This document shows positions 6,492 to 51,160 of a stretch of DNA of 64,000 nt, in pieces. The DNA lies in the NCBI RefSeq assembly GCF_009618275.1, contig NZ_WIAD01000027.1, forward strand, positions 1-64,000, read 5' to 3'. Positions within the stretch are counted from its first letter, which is position 1. Each line of letters starts with the position of its first letter. The DNA is from Roseimaritima sediminicola. Lineage in GTDB: Bacteria > Planctomycetota > Planctomycetia > Pirellulales > Pirellulaceae. The translations under genes and the position numbers were made by a program. Under the pieces are notes generated by a model. It searched no databases, was not told where the DNA came from, and was given only the letters and a program-made list of their open reading frames with translations.

Positions 6492-8569
6492 CCCTTCCAC
6501 GGGCCGCGGTCGGCGTCGCTGGGCATCCGCCAATCGCCGCGCGGTGACAGGCTGACCGAGCCGACTTTGGGGCCGTCGGGAACGCAGCTGCGTTTGAACT
6601 GGTTGGCAAAGAACCGCCGGTAAAACGTCTCCAGCGTCTTTTCGATCTGCTCCGCCGGATAGGCCTGTGAGAACTGGGCATGGCGAGCCAGGAAGAGGAT
6701 CTTCTCGGGCGTGAAGCCGTTGCGGACGACGTGGTAGAGGAAGAAGTCGTGCAGCTCGTACGGCCCGAGCGTGTCTTCGGTTTCCTGGCGGATTGTACCG
6801 TCCTCGGCCGGTGGCAGCAGCTCCGGCGAGATCGGCGTGTCGGCAATCGCATGGAGCAGTTCGCCATCGCGACCCTGGAAATAATGGTCCGCGGCGTACC
6901 GCACCAGGAACCGCACCAGCGTCTTCGGGATCGAGGTATTGACGTTGTACATCGACATGTGGTCGCCGTTGTACGTGCTCCACCCGAGCGCCTGTTCGGA
7001 CAGGTCGCCCGTGCCCAGGACGAATCCGCGGCTCATCAACAAGAACGTCCGCAGCCGGGCTTGAACGTTTTCAAACACCAGGTCGCCCTCTCCCGCATCG
7101 GTTTGCACCAGTCGCTGTTGCAGGGTCGCAGCGTCCATTCCCTCGGTCAAGGCGATGCCCAGCGGGGCGTGATCGAGCGACCGAAAGGCTTGCAGCGACA
7201 ACTCGCGGATGTCGATGCGTTCGCTGGAAATGCCCAGTACCCGCATCAGTTCCGTGGCGTTGCTTTCGGTGCTCGCGGTCGTTCCGAAGCCGGGCATCGT
7301 GACGCCGTGGATGCGACTGCGAGGCCAGTCGTACTGGTCGCAGGCTTTGACCGCCACCAACAACGCCAAGGTGCTGTCCAGGCCGCCCGAGACGCCGATC
7401 ACCAAAGGCGAGGAAGCCGACAAGCGGCTGACGCGTTTGGCCAACGCCGCCGTTTGAATCTCAAAAATCTCCGCGCAGCGCGCCGCCAAGCCGCTGGGGT
7501 CCGAGGGCACGAAGGGCTGGGCAATCACACGCCGTAGCGGCGGGCGATCCGGCGAGCGATGGTCGGAAACGCGGGAGCCGCTCGAAGGGGTCGCCGTGTC
7601 AGACTCGCTGGAGGAAGCAGACGATTGCCGGCCGGTGTCCGGAGCTTTGACATCGATGAAGCGGAATGGATGCGGCAACAACCGTCGTCCATCATCGAAC
7701 GATCCGATCACCTGACGATCGTGCTGCAGCCGTTGCAGGTCGATGTCGGCCATCGCATGGGTCGCGCCTTGCCAGGGCAATTCGCCGTCGCCGACCCGCC
7801 GTGACTGGTCCAGCAACTGGCCGTTTTCGGCGATCATGCAGTGGCCCCCGAAGACCAGGTCCGTGGTCGATTCGGTGGGTCCGCTGCTGGCGTACACGTA
7901 ACCCGCGATGCAGCGACCCGACTGGCTGACCACCAGATCGCGGCGCCACTGGGCTTTGCCAACCACTTCGTTGCTGGCTGAAAGATTCAGCAGCACGTTC
8001 GCTCCGGCCACCGCTTGAAAACTGCTCGGCGGCAGCGGCGTCCACAGGTCTTCGCAAATCTCCATGCCGATGACCGCTTCGCCGTACCGCAGCAGCAGGT
8101 CCGTGCCGTAGGGGACTTGTTGGCCGGCGATGGTTACCACCGGGCCATCACCGGCGTCCCCGGCACGAAACCAACGCCCTTCGTAGAACTCTTTGTAGGT
8201 GGGCAAGAATTGTTTCGGTACCGCGGCGATCAGGCGGCCGCGGTGCATTGCAATCGCCGCATTCATCAACGAGGTTTCCGCTCGCAGTGGCATTCCCACG
8301 ACCACCAATTGGTCACTGCTGGCGGTTTGTTCGGCCAGCCGCAACAGTTGTTCCTCGGCGGCGTCCAGCAGCGGCAACTGGGCGAATAAGTCGGCGCAGG
8401 TGTAGCCGGTCAGGCCCAGTTCCGGCAGCAGGATCAAGTCGGCTTCGCCCAGCGGCGCGATCGCTTCGAGGATGGAATCGACGTTCTGCCGCGGATCGCC
8501 CACGGCCACCTCCGGTGAGACGGCGGCGACGCGAAACAGGCCATGCGGAGGAAATGTCTGGTCGTTCAA
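6488..8569 (-). CDS. nadE: NAD+ synthase, glutamine-hydrolysing
   Basis: The 693-residue, two-domain enzyme makes NAD+ from deamido-NAD+, ATP and glutamine, the last step of NAD synthesis. The N-terminal nitrilase-like glutaminase shows the full triad: Glu50 in LLPELGLTGY, Lys119 in VPKQFLP and Cys172 in GMEICEDLW. The C-terminal synthetase has the ATP-pyrophosphatase loop SGGLDSTLAL and the motif GTGDLSEQALGWSTYNGDHM. Length and layout match the long NadE of actinobacteria. A Ser-rich linker of about 50 residues separates the domains. The start is TTG at 8569 with no strong ribosome site; no better in-frame start exists upstream. It is divergent from the SRAP gene. Confidence 0.95.
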   Translation of the reverse strand: MNDQTFPPHGLFRVAAVSPEVAVGDPRQNVDSILEAIAPLGEADLILLPELGLTGYTCADLFAQLPLLDAAEEQLLRLAEQTASSDQLVVVGMPLRAETSLMNAAIAMHRGRLIAAVPKQFLPTYKEFYEGRWFRAGDAGDGPVVTIAGQQVPYGTDLLLRYGEAVIGMEICEDLWTPLPPSSFQAVAGANVLLNLSASNEVVGKAQWRRDLVVSQSGRCIAGYVYASSGPTESTTDLVFGGHCMIAENGQLLDQSRRVGDGELPWQGATHAMADIDLQRLQHDRQVIGSFDDGRRLLPHPFRFIDVKAPDTGRQSSASSSESDTATPSSGSRVSDHRSPDRPPLRRVIAQPFVPSDPSGLAARCAEIFEIQTAALAKRVSRLSASSPLVIGVSGGLDSTLALLVAVKACDQYDWPRSRIHGVTMPGFGTTASTESNATELMRVLGISSERIDIRELSLQAFRSLDHAPLGIALTEGMDAATLQQRLVQTDAGEGDLVFENVQARLRTFLLMSRGFVLGTGDLSEQALGWSTYNGDHMSMYNVNTSIPKTLVRFLVRYAADHYFQGRDGELLHAIADTPISPELLPPAEDGTIRQETEDTLGPYELHDFFLYHVVRNGFTPEKILFLARHAQFSQAYPAEQIEKTLETFYRRFFANQFKRSCVPDGPKVGSVSLSPRGDWRMPSDADRGPWKG

Positions 8570-21944: not shown

Positions 21945-23013
21945 CGGGTGTTTGGGCGTTGCCGAGGGGCGTCGTGGGGTGCGCTTTTCGGGGCACGCTC
22001 CGCGGTTGGGTATCGGGTATTCGCGTCGCGGTTGGTCACCGGGAATTCGCGTCGCGGTTGGGCACCGGGAATTCGCGTCGCGGTTGGACACCGGGAATTC
22101 GCGTCGCGGTTGGTTGCCGGAAATTCGCGGAGCGAGGACATGTGGTAGCCAGGGGCACGAGCCCCTGGGGCTCGCGCCCCACCGCACGCTAAACCCCAGC
22201 GGGGTGACATGCGGTTTTCATGTCGCTCCTCCGGAGCTTGGTGGGTTGGGGGGCGCCGTTTCCTGGGGCTTGCGCCCCAGGCTACCGCCTGCCGCCGCTC
22301 CGCGGCTGGTTCGTTGGCGGGGCGACACGCATTGTCGAGGGGCGTCGTGGGTTGCGCTTTCGACGCACGCTCCGCGGTGGGTTATCGGTAAATGGCTCCG
22401 CGCCGCGGTTGGTTGATTGGCGGGGCGACACGCGTTGTCGAGGGATGTCGTGGGTTGCGCTTTCGACGCACGCTCCGCGGGTGGGTTATTGGGTATTCGC
22501 TCCGCGTCGCGGTTGGTCTCCGGAAATTCGCGGAGCGAGGACATGTGGTAGCCAGGGGCGCGAGCCCCTGGGGCTCGCGCCCCATCACACGCTAAACCCC
22601 GGCGGGGTGACATGCGGTTTTCAAGTCGCTCCTCCGGAGCTTGGTGGGTTGGGGGCGCCGTTTCCTGAAGCTCGCGCCCCAGGCTACCACCTGCCGCCGC
22701 TCCGCGGCTGGTTGGTTGGCGGGGCGGCACGCGTTGTCGAGGAGCGTCGGGGGTTGCGCTTTCGACGCACGCGCTGCGGTGGGTTATCGGTAAATGGCTC
22801 CGCGCCGCGGTTGGTTGATTGGCGGGGCGACACGCGTTGTCGAGGGATGTCGTGGATTGCGCTTTCGACGCACGCTCCGCGGTGGGTTATCGGGTATTCG
22901 GGTCGCGGTTGGTCTCCGGAAATTCGCGGAGCGAGGACATGTGGTAGCCAGGGGCGCGAGCCCCTGGGGCTCGTGCCCCACCGCACGTCAAACCCCGGCG
23001 GGGTGGCAGGCGG
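21945..23013. repeat. Composite hairpin repeat array, about 400-bp period (left part)
   Basis: A run of about 26 bp units (ATTCGCGTCGCGGTTGG type) at 22019-22125 leads into a unit of about 400 bp that recurs: the marker GAGGACATGTGGTAGCC is found near 22134, 22538 and 22933. Each unit strings together small hairpins: AGGGGC-GCGA-GCCCCT, ACCCC-GGC-GGGGT, GCTCC-TCC-GGAGC, CCTGGGGC-TTGC-GCCCCAGG and GCCGC-TCC-GCGGC. Long open frames through it on both strands are by-products of the GC-rich repeat. There is no gene here. Confidence 0.9.
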
Positions 23014-23481
23014 CTATCCGGCAAGCTCTTGATCAAACACATATCGCTCGTTGAAATGGACTCCGTGCAACCGAAGCAACTGAAGGTACTCCGATTCAAA
23101 GCTTTGTTTTCGGTGGTGCTCGCGCTGATTCATGATGTACTTGATAACTGCATCCTTGCCTGACTCGCTGACCGAAAATACGCCATAGCCTTTCTGCCAA
23201 TGGAACTTTGCCTTGATCTTTCGGTGGTCGTTGATCCATTTCGACGAGTTGGTCTTGAGGAAACGGATGGTGTCGGCGACCGCGAAGGAAGGGTGAGCAC
23301 GAAGCAGTAGATGCACGTGGTTTTCAATGCCACCTGCCTTCAAAACCGAAGCCTTGTGGTCCCTGGCTGCTCCCCCGATGTAGGCGAATAATTCGTCTCG
23401 CCAGTCATCGCGGAGAACGTTGGACCGATTCTTCGTGCTGAATACCGCGTGTAGCAAAAGGTTGGAGTGGGTTGATGGCAT
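23014..23481 (-). CDS. tnpA: IS200/IS605-family single-strand transposase TnpA (Y1 HUH)
   Basis: ATG 23481 gives 155 residues, the usual full length for TnpA; the open frame further upstream is not needed. The HUH metal site is His55-Val-His57 in GGIENHVHLLLR, and the nucleophile should be Tyr115 in VIKYIMNQREHH, the IS200-type context rather than the YIH-x-NP of REP-associated relatives. The enzyme nicks and joins single-stranded DNA by recognising subterminal hairpins. No tnpB lies nearby. The coding text is lower in GC than its surroundings and appears intact. It lies inside an array of palindromic repeats with a second array elsewhere, so the repeats could be its substrates or passengers. 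Confidence 0.9.
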   Translation of the reverse strand: MPSTHSNLLLHAVFSTKNRSNVLRDDWRDELFAYIGGAARDHKASVLKAGGIENHVHLLLRAHPSFAVADTIRFLKTNSSKWINDHRKIKAKFHWQKGYGVFSVSESGKDAVIKYIMNQREHHRKQSFESEYLQLLRLHGVHFNERYVFDQELAG

Positions 23482-23607
23482 GGTTTCACTACCCCTGTAG
23501 AACCAATCTGAGGTCGACGTTGTCGCCTGCCCCGCGCAAGCACATCGCCCTTGTTTCCGCGCAGCCATTTTATCGTGGGTCGAGGCTTCCGTGTGGGGGG
23601 GGGGCTT
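23014..23607 (-). mobile_element. IS200/IS605-type insertion inside the composite repeat
   Basis: The neighbouring repeat copies read without a break as GACATGCGGTTTTCATGTCGC (about 22207) where this copy is interrupted. The left partner ends at GGCAGGCGG (23013) and the right partner resumes at TTTTCATGTCGC (about 23607). About 594 bp of extra DNA, containing one transposase gene, therefore lies at GCGG/TTTT. There are no terminal inverted repeats or target duplication, as expected for this family. The boundary coincides with the transposase stop codon, leaving no room for a separate right end. Confidence 0.75.
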
Positions 23608-24105
23608 TTTTCATGTCGCTCCTCCGGAGCTTGGTGGGTTGGGGGCGGCGTTCCTGGGGCTCGCGCCCCAGGCTACCACCTGCCGCCGCTCCGCGGCTGG
23701 TTGGTTGGCGGGGCGACACGCGTTGTCGAGGAGCGTCGGGGGTTGCGCTTTCGACGCACCCGCCGCGGTGGGTTCGTTGGCGGGACGACACGCGTTGTCG
23801 ACGGGCATCGTGGGTTGCGCTTTCGACGCACGCTCCACGGTGGGTTATCGGTAAATGGCTCCGTGTCGCGGTTGGTCACCGGAAATTCGCTCCACGGTTG
23901 GTCTCCGGCAATTCGCGGAGCGAGGACATGTGGTAGCCAGGGGCGCGAGCCCCTGGGCATGGCCCCACCAAACGCTAAACCCCGGAGGGGTGGCATACGG
24001 TCTTCATGTCGCTCCTCCCGAGCTAGAGCGTGGATTGGGCGCGAGCCCCTGGGGCTCGCGCCCCATCACACGCTAAACCCCGGCGGGGTGACATGCGGCT
24101 GGTGG
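23608..24105. repeat. Composite hairpin repeat array (right part)
   Basis: This continues the 400-bp unit after the insertion, with marker GAGGACATGTGGTAGCC near 23924 and a partial copy up to about 24105, 100 bp before pyrC. One hairpin here reads ACCCC-GGA-GGGGT where left-hand copies have GGC or AGC in the loop. The remaining 24106-24208 should hold the pyrC promoter, but no clear boxes are visible. Confidence 0.85.
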
Positions 24106-25625: not shown

Positions 25626-25808
<183 letters not shown>

Positions 25809-25873
25809 GCACGGCTGTGCTGAAAGGGAAGGATCCCCTAGCGCTGCGTCAACATTTGATCTTAGACGCTGGC

Positions 25874-25941
25874 CGTAGCTGAAGTCGCCAGACTTTGGAG
25901 CTTCTCGCCGCTTCAGTCCAATCTCTGGCAAGATCAGCTAC
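25874..25941. repeat. Dispersed inverted-repeat element (GTAGCTGA...TCGCCAGA family)
   Basis: GTAGCTGAAGTCGCCAGA at the left faces TCTGGCAAGATCAGCTAC at the right, nearly perfect inverted arms around a 32-bp centre. It is the second copy of the element at 6420 and lies just after the hydrolase stop codon at 25968 (read on the minus strand). Confidence 0.8.
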
Positions 25942-25967
25942 CTCTAAAAGGAAACGTGGACGCACCA

Positions 25968-26771
25968 CTAGCGAGTCACTTCGTCGCGGAAGATCTCGTC
26001 GAAGAAGGACTTCATGGCCTCCCAGGAGCGCTTGTCCGCTCGCTCGTTGTAGGCCGCGCCGGTCGAGTTGTCGTTGCCGGCCATGGGCTGGGTGAAGGAG
26101 TGGACGGCACCGGAGTAGATGTTCATCTGCCAGTCCACGTCCGCATCGTTCAGCTCTTTGATAAACGCCTGGATGTCCTGTTCCGGAACAAACGGATCGT
26201 CGGCTCCGTGCAGGACCAGGACTTCGGCGCTGATGTTCTTGCCGTCTTCGGGGCTCGGCGAATCCAGACCGCCGTGGAAGCTGACCACGCCCCGAACCTC
26301 GGCGCCGCTGCGGGCCAGTTCCAGCACGCCCGTGCCGCCGAAGCAGTAACCGATGGCGGCGGTTTGTTCGGGATACACATTGGGTTGGCCGCGCAGCTGC
26401 TCCAGGCCCAGGTTCAGACGCCGCCGGTACAGGTCGCGATCCGATTTGTACTTGCCGGCCATTTCTGCCGCTTGTTGCCGGTTTTCCGGGCGGACGCCCT
26501 GGCCGTAGATGTCGAGGGCAAAGGCGACGTAGCCCAGCTCGGCCAGCTGTTTGCAGCGTCGCTGTTCGTACTTCGTAAGTCCCATCCACTGATGCACGAC
26601 CAGCACGCCCGGAGCCTGCGTCTTTTCGGTGTCCCAGGCCAGGAAACCTTCCAGGGTGGTGTCGCCGTCCTGATAGGTCACGCGTTTGGTTTGAATTTCG
26701 GCACGGGCTTGGCTCGCTGGAAAGGTGGCACTCAGAAAAGTCGCACACACAGCACAGAGCAGCAGTCGCAT
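25968..26771 (-). CDS. Exported dienelactone hydrolase family protein
   Basis: The 267-residue alpha/beta hydrolase begins with a signal peptide (MRLLLCAVCATFLSATFPAS, cleavage near ARA). The dienelactone-hydrolase triad is Cys in IGYCFGGTG, Asp in HGADDPFVP and His in GAVHSFTQP. The cysteine nucleophile separates the family from ordinary serine esterases. The oxyanion region is VVHQWMGL. Classical members open dienelactones in aromatic breakdown. Exported planctomycete versions are of unknown substrate and may act on lactones or esters in the periplasm. The gene stands alone, divergent from the next membrane protein. Confidence 0.87.
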   Translation of the reverse strand: MRLLLCAVCATFLSATFPASQARAEIQTKRVTYQDGDTTLEGFLAWDTEKTQAPGVLVVHQWMGLTKYEQRRCKQLAELGYVAFALDIYGQGVRPENRQQAAEMAGKYKSDRDLYRRRLNLGLEQLRGQPNVYPEQTAAIGYCFGGTGVLELARSGAEVRGVVSFHGGLDSPSPEDGKNISAEVLVLHGADDPFVPEQDIQAFIKELNDADVDWQMNIYSGAVHSFTQPMAGNDNSTGAAYNERADKRSWEAMKSFFDEIFRDEVTR

Positions 26772-27634: not shown

Positions 27635-27659
27635 CGGTTCGTCGAGGGCTGACTTCAGG

Positions 27660-27765
27660 GTAGCCGATCTCGCCAGAGATGGGATCGAGCCGGTGTGCGT
27701 GTCCAAAGTCTGGCGACTACCGCTACGGTTGGGCCCGAGGTCCAAAGTCTGGCGACTACCGCTAC
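27660..27765. repeat. Rearranged copies of the GTAGC...CGCCAGA element
   Basis: GTAGCCGATCTCGCCAGAGAT at the left, followed by two direct copies of GTCCAAAGTCTGGCGACTAC separated by a short GC-rich spacer (about 27699-27720 and 27740-27761). The right arm has been duplicated compared with the copies at 6420 and 25874. It lies between the stop codons of convergent genes. Confidence 0.75.
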
Positions 27766-50451: not shown

Positions 50452-51160
50452 CACCCGGTGTGTCGCCTCGCCAACGAACCAGCCGCGGAGCAGCGGCAGG
50501 CGGTAGCCTGGGGCGCGAGCCCCAGAACGCCGCCCCCAAATCCACGCTAGCTCCGGAGGAGCGACATGACGACCGCACGTCACCCCTCCGGGGTTTATCG
50601 TTTGGTGGGGCCATGCCCCAGGGGCTCGCGCCCCTGGCTACCACATGTCCTCGCTCCGCGAATTTCGAGGACCAACCGTGGAGCGAATATCCAATACCCA
50701 ACCGCTCCGGGAATTTCCAATACCCAACCGCATCGCGGAGCGATTGCCCGGTGACCAACCGCGGGGCGTGCCTCGAAAAACGCAATCCACGACGCTCCTC
50801 GACAACGCGTGTCGCCCCGCCAACGAACCAGCCGCGGAGCGGCGGCAGGTGGTAGCCTGGGGCGCAAGCCCCAGGAACGGTGCCCCCAACCCACACGCTA
50901 GCTCCGGAGGAGCGACATGAAGACCGTGTGCCACCCCTCCGGGGTTTAGCGTTTGGTGGGGCGTGAGCCCCAGGGGCTCGCGCCCCTGGCTACCGCATGT
51001 CCTCGCTCCGCGAATTTCCAACGCCCAACCGCTCCGCGGTTTTCCGGTACCCAACCCGGGCTCGCGCCCCTGGCTACCGCATGTCCTCGCTCCGCGAATT
51101 TCCAATACCCAACCGCTCTGCGAATTTTCGGCACCCAACCGCGGCGCGGCGAGAACATTT
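50452..51160. repeat. Second composite hairpin repeat cluster
   Basis: Two near-complete and one partial inverted copies of the 400-bp unit of 21945-24105: ACATGTCCTCGCTCCGCGAA recurs at about 50642, 50996 and 51079. Hairpins include GCTCC-GGA-GGAGC, ACCCC-TCC-GGGGT, GGGGC-GTGA-GCCCC and AGGGGC-TCGC-GCCCCT. Text of the type ATACCCAACCGCTCCGCGAA is repeated in short form between them. There is no transposase here, and the open frames are by-products. Confidence 0.88.

Follow-up and report, generated by a model that had tools for sequence, protein, structure and literature searches.

Within the 64,000-nucleotide stretch of Roseimaritima sediminicola DNA analysed here (the window), a short IS200-like transposase gene lies inside a hairpin-rich tandem array, raising the question of whether the surrounding hairpins are the ends on which this transposase acts or only the place where it came to rest. 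The marker GAGGACATGTGGTAGCC occurs as an exact match on the plus strand at 22134, 22537, 22933 and 23922, with spacings of 403, 396 and 989, compared to 0.1 matches (maximum 1) in dinucleotide shuffles. The array unit is 402–403 bp long, and the first two units are 94–95% identical. The extra length of the longest gap corresponds to a 594-bp segment (23014–23607), and the adjoining units that lack it read continuously across the join GCGG/TTTT. The minus strand has one further exact copy of the marker, at 50636, and two copies with a single mismatch, at 50988 and 51072. A previous, sequence-only reading of this DNA had reported the four marker copies with a last gap lengthened by the transposase segment, the uninterrupted join in neighbouring copies and transposase-free repeats at 50–51 kb, all of which we recover.

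The repeats are built from a composite module of ∼90–110 bp, in which hairpin A1 is followed by an 8-bp hairpin B with a (G)TAG foot and then by hairpin A2; primes denote the inverted copy. The features of the two arrays are:

21945–24105: hairpin-rich array with four marker copies in units of ∼400 bp, one of them with tnpA
22126–22307: first unit without tnpA, A1-GTAG-B-A2 / A2'-B'-CTAC-A1'; its right half matches Rfam family RF01687 (22262–22307, 48.1 bits)
22526–22709: second unit without tnpA, same layout as the first (sequence, Rfam scan and folding)
22925–22933: hairpin A1, CGC-GGA-GCG, at the downstream end of the tnpA-bearing unit (from sequence)
22944–22967, plus strand: GTAG foot (22944–22947) and hairpin B, CCAGGGGCGCGAGCCCCTGG (22948–22967), downstream end
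22992–23009: hairpin A2, ACCCC-GGC-GGGGT, and GGCAG, immediately outside the tnpA stop codon
23014–23607, minus strand: 594-bp segment confined to the tnpA-bearing unit (spacing of 396 versus 989, and sequence)
23014–23481, minus strand: tnpA, encoding a 155-aa Y1 HUH transposase (subclass 1.2; ATG at 23481, TAG at 23016–23014)
23613–23630: A2', ATGTC and hairpin GCTCC-TCC-GGAGC, at the upstream end of the tnpA unit
23653–23698, plus strand: hairpin B', CTAC (complement of the GTAG foot) and hairpin A1'; RF01687 (Acido-Lenti-1), 49.7 bits, gathering score 37
23911–24098: additional partial modules at the right-hand end of the array
50460–51116, minus strand: second array, built from the same modules but lacking tnpA; RF01687 match at 50830–50875

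The tnpA gene is placed exactly between A2 (hairpin 22992–23004) and A2' (hairpin 23618–23630), i.e., between inverted copies of the module. The outer half of the module (B-CTA-A1) matches RF01687 above the gathering score (37) in the window, and the region over the downstream A1 (22922–22967, minus strand) reaches 34.2 bits, just below it. In the second unit without tnpA, the left half consists of A1 (CGC-GGA-GCG), AGGACAT, GTAG, B (CCAGGGGC-GCGA-GCCCCTGG), a spacer and A2 (ACCCC-GGC-GGGGT), followed by GACAT, GCGG/TTTT and the inverted set A2', B', CTAC, A1'. Both A1 and A2 are followed by GACA or GGCA on the inward strand (TGTC or TGCC on the outward strand). As single-stranded DNA, this unit has a computed folding energy of −62.4 kcal/mol versus −42.1 for shuffles (z = −6.2), and in the predicted fold the two modules pair with each other.

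By its sequence, the encoded protein is a TnpA_Y1 of subclass 1.2 and not an ordinary IS200 transposase. It matches Pfam Y1_Tnp (E = 1e-26) and NCBIfam NF033573 IS200 (E = 3e-20), carries the HUH motif and the single tyrosine of the catalytic core, and contains the motifs NHVH, WQ and YIMNQREHH; in an alignment of 16 sequences, H55, H57, Y115, Q119, H122 and H123 are among the invariant residues. The TnpA profile aligns to the TnpA proteins of ISDra2 and IS608, both class 1, which were the only transposases returned when the PDB was searched by sequence, E. coli TnpA_REP not being among the matches. The class 2 motif Y---NP is absent, as all aligned full-length homologues have Y---Q. Subclass 1.2 was defined by the signature Y---Q--HH / WQ (Quentin et al. 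2018, PMC6006769), and the window protein shows both elements in a core protein of ∼150 aa, as do nearly all of its homologues. It also resembles the published subclass in its few copies and low inter-copy identity. With IS200/IS605 elements (TnpA subclass 1.1) it shares the HUH/Y1 fold, a small single-domain protein, Y---Q, hairpin ends and the lack of a visible target duplication, but it differs in having WQ where those elements have W[TS], HH following the Y motif and inverted matched modules instead of one hairpin per end, and no tnpB was seen beside the window copy.

The genome carries four tnpA copies, and the search for other transposase-bearing copies suggested by the sequence-only reading yielded three paralogues, 44–53% identical to the window protein. 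This combination of low copy number and divergent copies is that of subclass 1.2; several near-identical copies, as IS200/IS605 elements have, are not found in the genome. All four paralogues lie in four different hairpin arrays, those of the other three being built on CCTCGGAC-GTGA-GTCCGAGG (L002), CCTCGGAT-GAA-ATCCGAGG (L003) and CCGGGGAC-GTGA-GTCCCCGG (L004). That reading had also held that finding the transposase elsewhere without these repeats would speak against their link: taken literally this is what we see, since the repeat sequences differ, whereas the architecture is the same in the homologues. Other Y1 genes in the genome include frame-broken class 2 genes, a pair on C110 and one on C97 (L039, L040, L041; G000), with the motifs HYH and NALRAGLV and no adjoining hairpin arrays within the stretch examined.

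Outside this genome, tnpA is present in 32 of 60 genomes of the family, and 80 loci were kept from a scan of GTDB species genomes. According to the labels in the records, these belong to Planctomycetota, Verrucomicrobiota, Acidobacteriota, Bacteroidota, Deltaproteobacteria, Chloroflexi, Zixibacteria and Calditrichota; a plasmid collection gave four matches only, all distant. For 95 non-redundant loci with the signature and sufficient flank, end matching was scored by local alignment of the inverted upstream 300 bp with the downstream 300 bp. The median score was 58 within the same locus, 18 between mismatched loci and 18 for shuffles, and windows 1.2 kb out scored 19 (maximum 28). At 61 of the 95 loci the score exceeded the 99th percentile obtained with mismatched pairs, indicating matched inverted ends; the 34 that did not pass this threshold include many Bacteroidota and damaged loci. 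The ends are specific to each element: the own partner outscored all 40 foreign partners at 66 of 95 loci, and loci with more similar tnpA also have more similar ends (Mantel test, Spearman 0.29, against at most 0.084 under permutation and 0.079 for control windows).

Hairpins are concentrated directly at the gene. Perfect hairpins reach 7.6 per kb in the first 100 bp versus 0.37 in shuffled sequence (∼20-fold) and 0.9 at 1 kb, and on 156 of 190 sides a hairpin with a stem of at least 5 begins no more than 70 nt from the ORF, versus 30 in shuffles. A distal CTA, which is the TAG foot on the other strand, accompanies 71 of 228 stronger hairpins within 350 bp but only 3 of 63 far hairpins. TAG-footed 8-bp hairpins were detected at 42 of 95 loci, in 4 of 94 control regions and in none of the shuffles. 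Their 38 distinct stems mostly keep the first two bases (CC), whereas the middle varies with compensation, indicating that structure and foot are conserved and that the stem is element-specific. GTAG (40) is the most frequent foot, ahead of ATAG (33) and TTAG (16), so that GTAG-footed flanking palindromes of the RAYT type occur here as well. The layout is not uniform, the modules at L002, L003 and L045 having the opposite polarity. Bacteroidota loci mostly have simpler ends, with A-type hairpins around a TATAG-like stretch, and mostly lack an RF01687 match.

The sequence-only reading had concluded that the element has no right end of its own. When homologues are compared this does not hold: those with other repeats also have modules directly outside the ORF, so that the flanking module is the end. 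The 95 homologous loci compared lend good support to its suggestion that an IS200-like (YI-x-NQ) transposase could use the flanking palindromes as its ends in the manner of RAYT/REP systems. That reading did not include the module of two hairpins plus GTAG, the assignment to subclass 1.2, the occurrence in many phyla, the REPIN-like copies dispersed through the genome or the Rfam match. In the reading we favour and consider likely, tnpA encodes a Y1 (HUH) transposase of subclass 1.2 that has cognate ends of its own in the form of inverted composite modules; this would be a REPtron-like system working with a class 1 (IS200-lineage) enzyme, and the window TnpA most likely recognises the hairpins of its array.

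RF01687 exceeds its gathering score at 32 of the 100 tnpA loci that were scanned; most of these matches lie no more than a few hundred bases from the gene, and most face outward. Of the 60 genomes compared, 26 have both RF01687 and tnpA, 6 have only tnpA, 6 have only RF01687 and 22 have neither (Fisher p = 6e-6, or 1e-4 in high-quality genomes alone; these genomes are interrelated and the values are uncorrected for shared ancestry). One of the six genomes with RF01687 only, G026, retains a truncated tnpA. Outward-pointing RF01687 pairs are mostly 140–158 bp apart in G016 and G043, and G008 has tandem arrays.

Modules related to those of the window are dispersed through its genome. With up to two mismatches, GAGGACATGTGGTAGCC has 72 occurrences, and 40 dispersed regions show the layout A1-GTAG-B-A2/A2'-B'-CTAC-A1' as complete or half modules. 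By alignment, this related family occupies ∼45 places, ∼30 of them near full length and with 78–100% identity; these are the dispersed inverted palindrome pairs that characterize REPINs and BIMEs. The family was not found in the same-genus genome G028, and four other genomes searched gave one weak match. In G028, the tnpA array is missing from the syntenic interval (697 bp versus 2912 bp between shared anchor genes), and two dispersed copies are likewise missing at their syntenic sites, one of them with 31 bp versus 408 bp. The comparison with G028 recovered no base-exact target sites, as the intergenic DNA is too diverged.

Such copies could have multiplied by another route, such as host recombination, replication slippage or a lost transposase, with a domesticated tnpA only using or regulating the modules. 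In line with this, hairpins and stems of the dispersed family are unlike those beside the window tnpA, so that we infer rather than observe its exact driver. Moreover, many of the dispersed copies are enclosed by a longer palindrome, CTGACTCTAACGGAATCTATGTA...TACATAGATTCCGTTAGAGTCAG, possibly that of another element, with AAATCTC repeats outside (L152–L191; L192 at ∼7189–7571), and a genome-wide search for an uninterrupted outer palindrome that would mark the exact insertion point found none. RF01687 copies without detectable tnpA also occur in four genomes. Against this route stand the co-occurrence of RF01687 and tnpA across genomes and the three genomes in which dispersed copies mostly share foot and stem with the tnpA ends. 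In G016 these are mostly of the foot and stem type of the own tnpA ends (ATAG + CCTGGGGC), in G043 they carry ATAG + CCAGGGGC as at the own tnpA ends, with GTAG in one of the three copies, and in G008 they are mostly as at the own ends, TTAG with varied CC-stems. We therefore regard multiplication by another route as unlikely and prefer spread by the transposase through its own ends.

The units without tnpA bear on a further alternative, in which an ordinary IS200-type IS entered a BIME-like array that was already there, the transposase has no connection with the repeats, and the units next to it are genuine empty sites. IS200 elements insert without target duplication, and the window locus has the corresponding appearance of a single insertion with no visible duplication and a precise GCGG/TTTT join in the adjoining units. 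A tnpA piece was sought in the tnpA-less units of the window array and none was found, so that insertion and precise loss both fit there. At L003, by contrast, the last 56–59 nt of tnpA are retained in two neighbouring units, and remnants of a similar kind are present at L060, L063 and L136; the tnpA-less units of these loci are therefore best read as deletion products and not as empty sites. The intact empty sites of the sequence-only reading have thus not been established, and they are weakened by these remnants in relatives. With these remnants, and with ∼45 dispersed copies of a related family in the genome that a congener lacks, the tnpA-less units resemble REPIN-like derivatives more than plain empty sites. 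Insertion of an IS also accounts poorly for the lack of near-identical copies and for the matched inverted modules of differing sequence that flank all four paralogues and most of the 95 homologues. On this comparison of four paralogues and 95 loci we rejected passive insertion as the main reading, and consider it improbable.

The weakest alternative, that the hairpins act mainly as RNA, either as a real ncRNA or as a regulator of tnpA and its neighbours with which the transposase merely travels along, is in line with matches above the gathering score to a family proposed as a structured RNA (PMC2864571) and with RNA-hairpin control of IS200-type genes, but it is very improbable given that modules are found on both strands, as inverted pairs and as tandem arrays, that their presence tracks the transposase gene and that they lack a G-U bias. 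Genes of the IS200 type are controlled by RNA hairpins. Regarding the bias, the non-Watson-Crick pairs in 122 distinct TAG-footed hairpins comprise 21 G-T and 18 A-C, a weak test that shows no wobble bias for either strand and hence favours DNA over a one-strand RNA. Strand symmetry and co-occurrence with tnpA led us to set aside an RNA function as the sole explanation. The Acido-Lenti-1 motif is merely listed in the main text of Weinberg et al. 2010 (PMC2864571), and a 2026 paper states that little is known about its function and speculates on protease regulation (PMC13298647). Although catalogued in Rfam as an sRNA of unknown function, Acido-Lenti-1 exceeds its gathering score with the B-CTA-A1 half at many tnpA loci and here looks like a DNA transposon end.

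Returning to cognate ends as the preferred reading, a mechanism can be modelled on the biochemistry of TnpA_IS200 and TnpA_REP (PMC8266576), by analogy with which we infer cleavage and mobility. TnpA would bind folded modules on single-stranded DNA, e.g., the lagging-strand template, with the TAG tetranucleotide as a guide, where AG would predict cleavage at CT, and would cut and rejoin through Tyr115. Segments reaching from module to module, with or without tnpA, could thereby be excised and re-inserted. Loss of the gene between two modules would leave REPIN-like units, and these as well as single modules may spread or amplify in tandem while one tnpA copy per family is kept. As the modules are inverted copies, one end of each strand bears a TAG-B hairpin and the opposite end TGTC-A hairpins, an arrangement that, we conjecture, might replace the different left and right ends of IS608.

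More broadly, subclass 1.2 probably represents a second REPIN/RAYT-like system, placed on the IS200 branch in many phyla, separate from the class 2 RAYTs and possibly of independent origin, with Acido-Lenti-1 being a recognised single-stranded DNA end and not an RNA. Like the REPtrons of E. coli, Stenotrophomonas and Pseudomonas, it combines a low-copy Y1 gene with GTAG-footed flanking palindromes, and like REPs, BIMEs and REPINs its repeats form inverted pairs dispersed through the genome as well as tandem arrays. The S. maltophilia REP has a perfect 8-bp stem with a 3-nt loop (PMC8266576), and hairpin B is much alike. In contrast, RAYTs (TnpA_REP) are class 2 enzymes with Y---NP, whereas the enzymes here are class 1 with Y---Q, each end is a composite of three hairpins and the gene-less element measures 180–250 bp. 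Subclass 1.2 has been described as closely related to IS200 transposases but lacking both REPs and the properties of an IS, and as occurring mostly in Cyanobacteria and Bacteroidetes (PMC6006769). The absence of REP-like structures is part of that description and not of the definition; here, cognate hairpin modules are present at most loci, and the subclass is common in Planctomycetota and other phyla.

The association of transposase and flanking repeats as such is already partly known. The main text of Di Nocera et al. 2013 (PMC3733652) describes GTAG REPs in Planctomycetes and, for R. baltica, "a plethora of tyrosine transposase genes and corresponding flanking repeats"; the GTAG palindromes of its REPs and TIRtrons resemble ours, but that text gives no subclass 1.2 assignment, composite module or link to Acido-Lenti-1. 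Judged against published main texts, the subclass 1.2 enzymes, the composite module, the spread over several phyla and the identity of Acido-Lenti-1 appear to be new. If our reading is true, it provides a substrate and a likely job for a transposase class described without IS ends or REPs, explains an orphan Rfam "ncRNA" found in many genomes, and shows that REPIN-like DNA populations are not confined to RAYTs but also exist with an enzyme of the IS200 lineage. It would thereby link an overlooked transposase class to widespread short repeats, Acido-Lenti-1 included, and how REPs originate from IS ends could then be tested directly, using short oligonucleotides and a small protein.

Several loci show further arrangements. 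L052 and L108 each carry two subclass 1.2 tnpA copies in tandem (67% identical at L108), as if whole units amplify together with the gene. At the Bacteroidota loci L098, L128 and L151, AACCCCGAAGGGGTGA and AATCCCGAAGGGATG hairpins flank tnpA with TATAG between them, and these hairpins may constitute repeat families of their own. L145, labelled as a Klebsiella pneumoniae MAG, has a subclass 1.2 tnpA with ends resembling those of the Chloroflexi locus L104, and its organism label looks wrong. In the window itself, 25637–25812, downstream of a dihydroorotase-like gene, is low-complexity sequence with repetitive ORFs (LVLVLV..., STSTST...). A different dispersed repeat, distinct from that of the array, is found in opposite orientations at 25837–25973 and 27651–27747, and is shared with G028, which has more than 20 copies at 75–86% identity.
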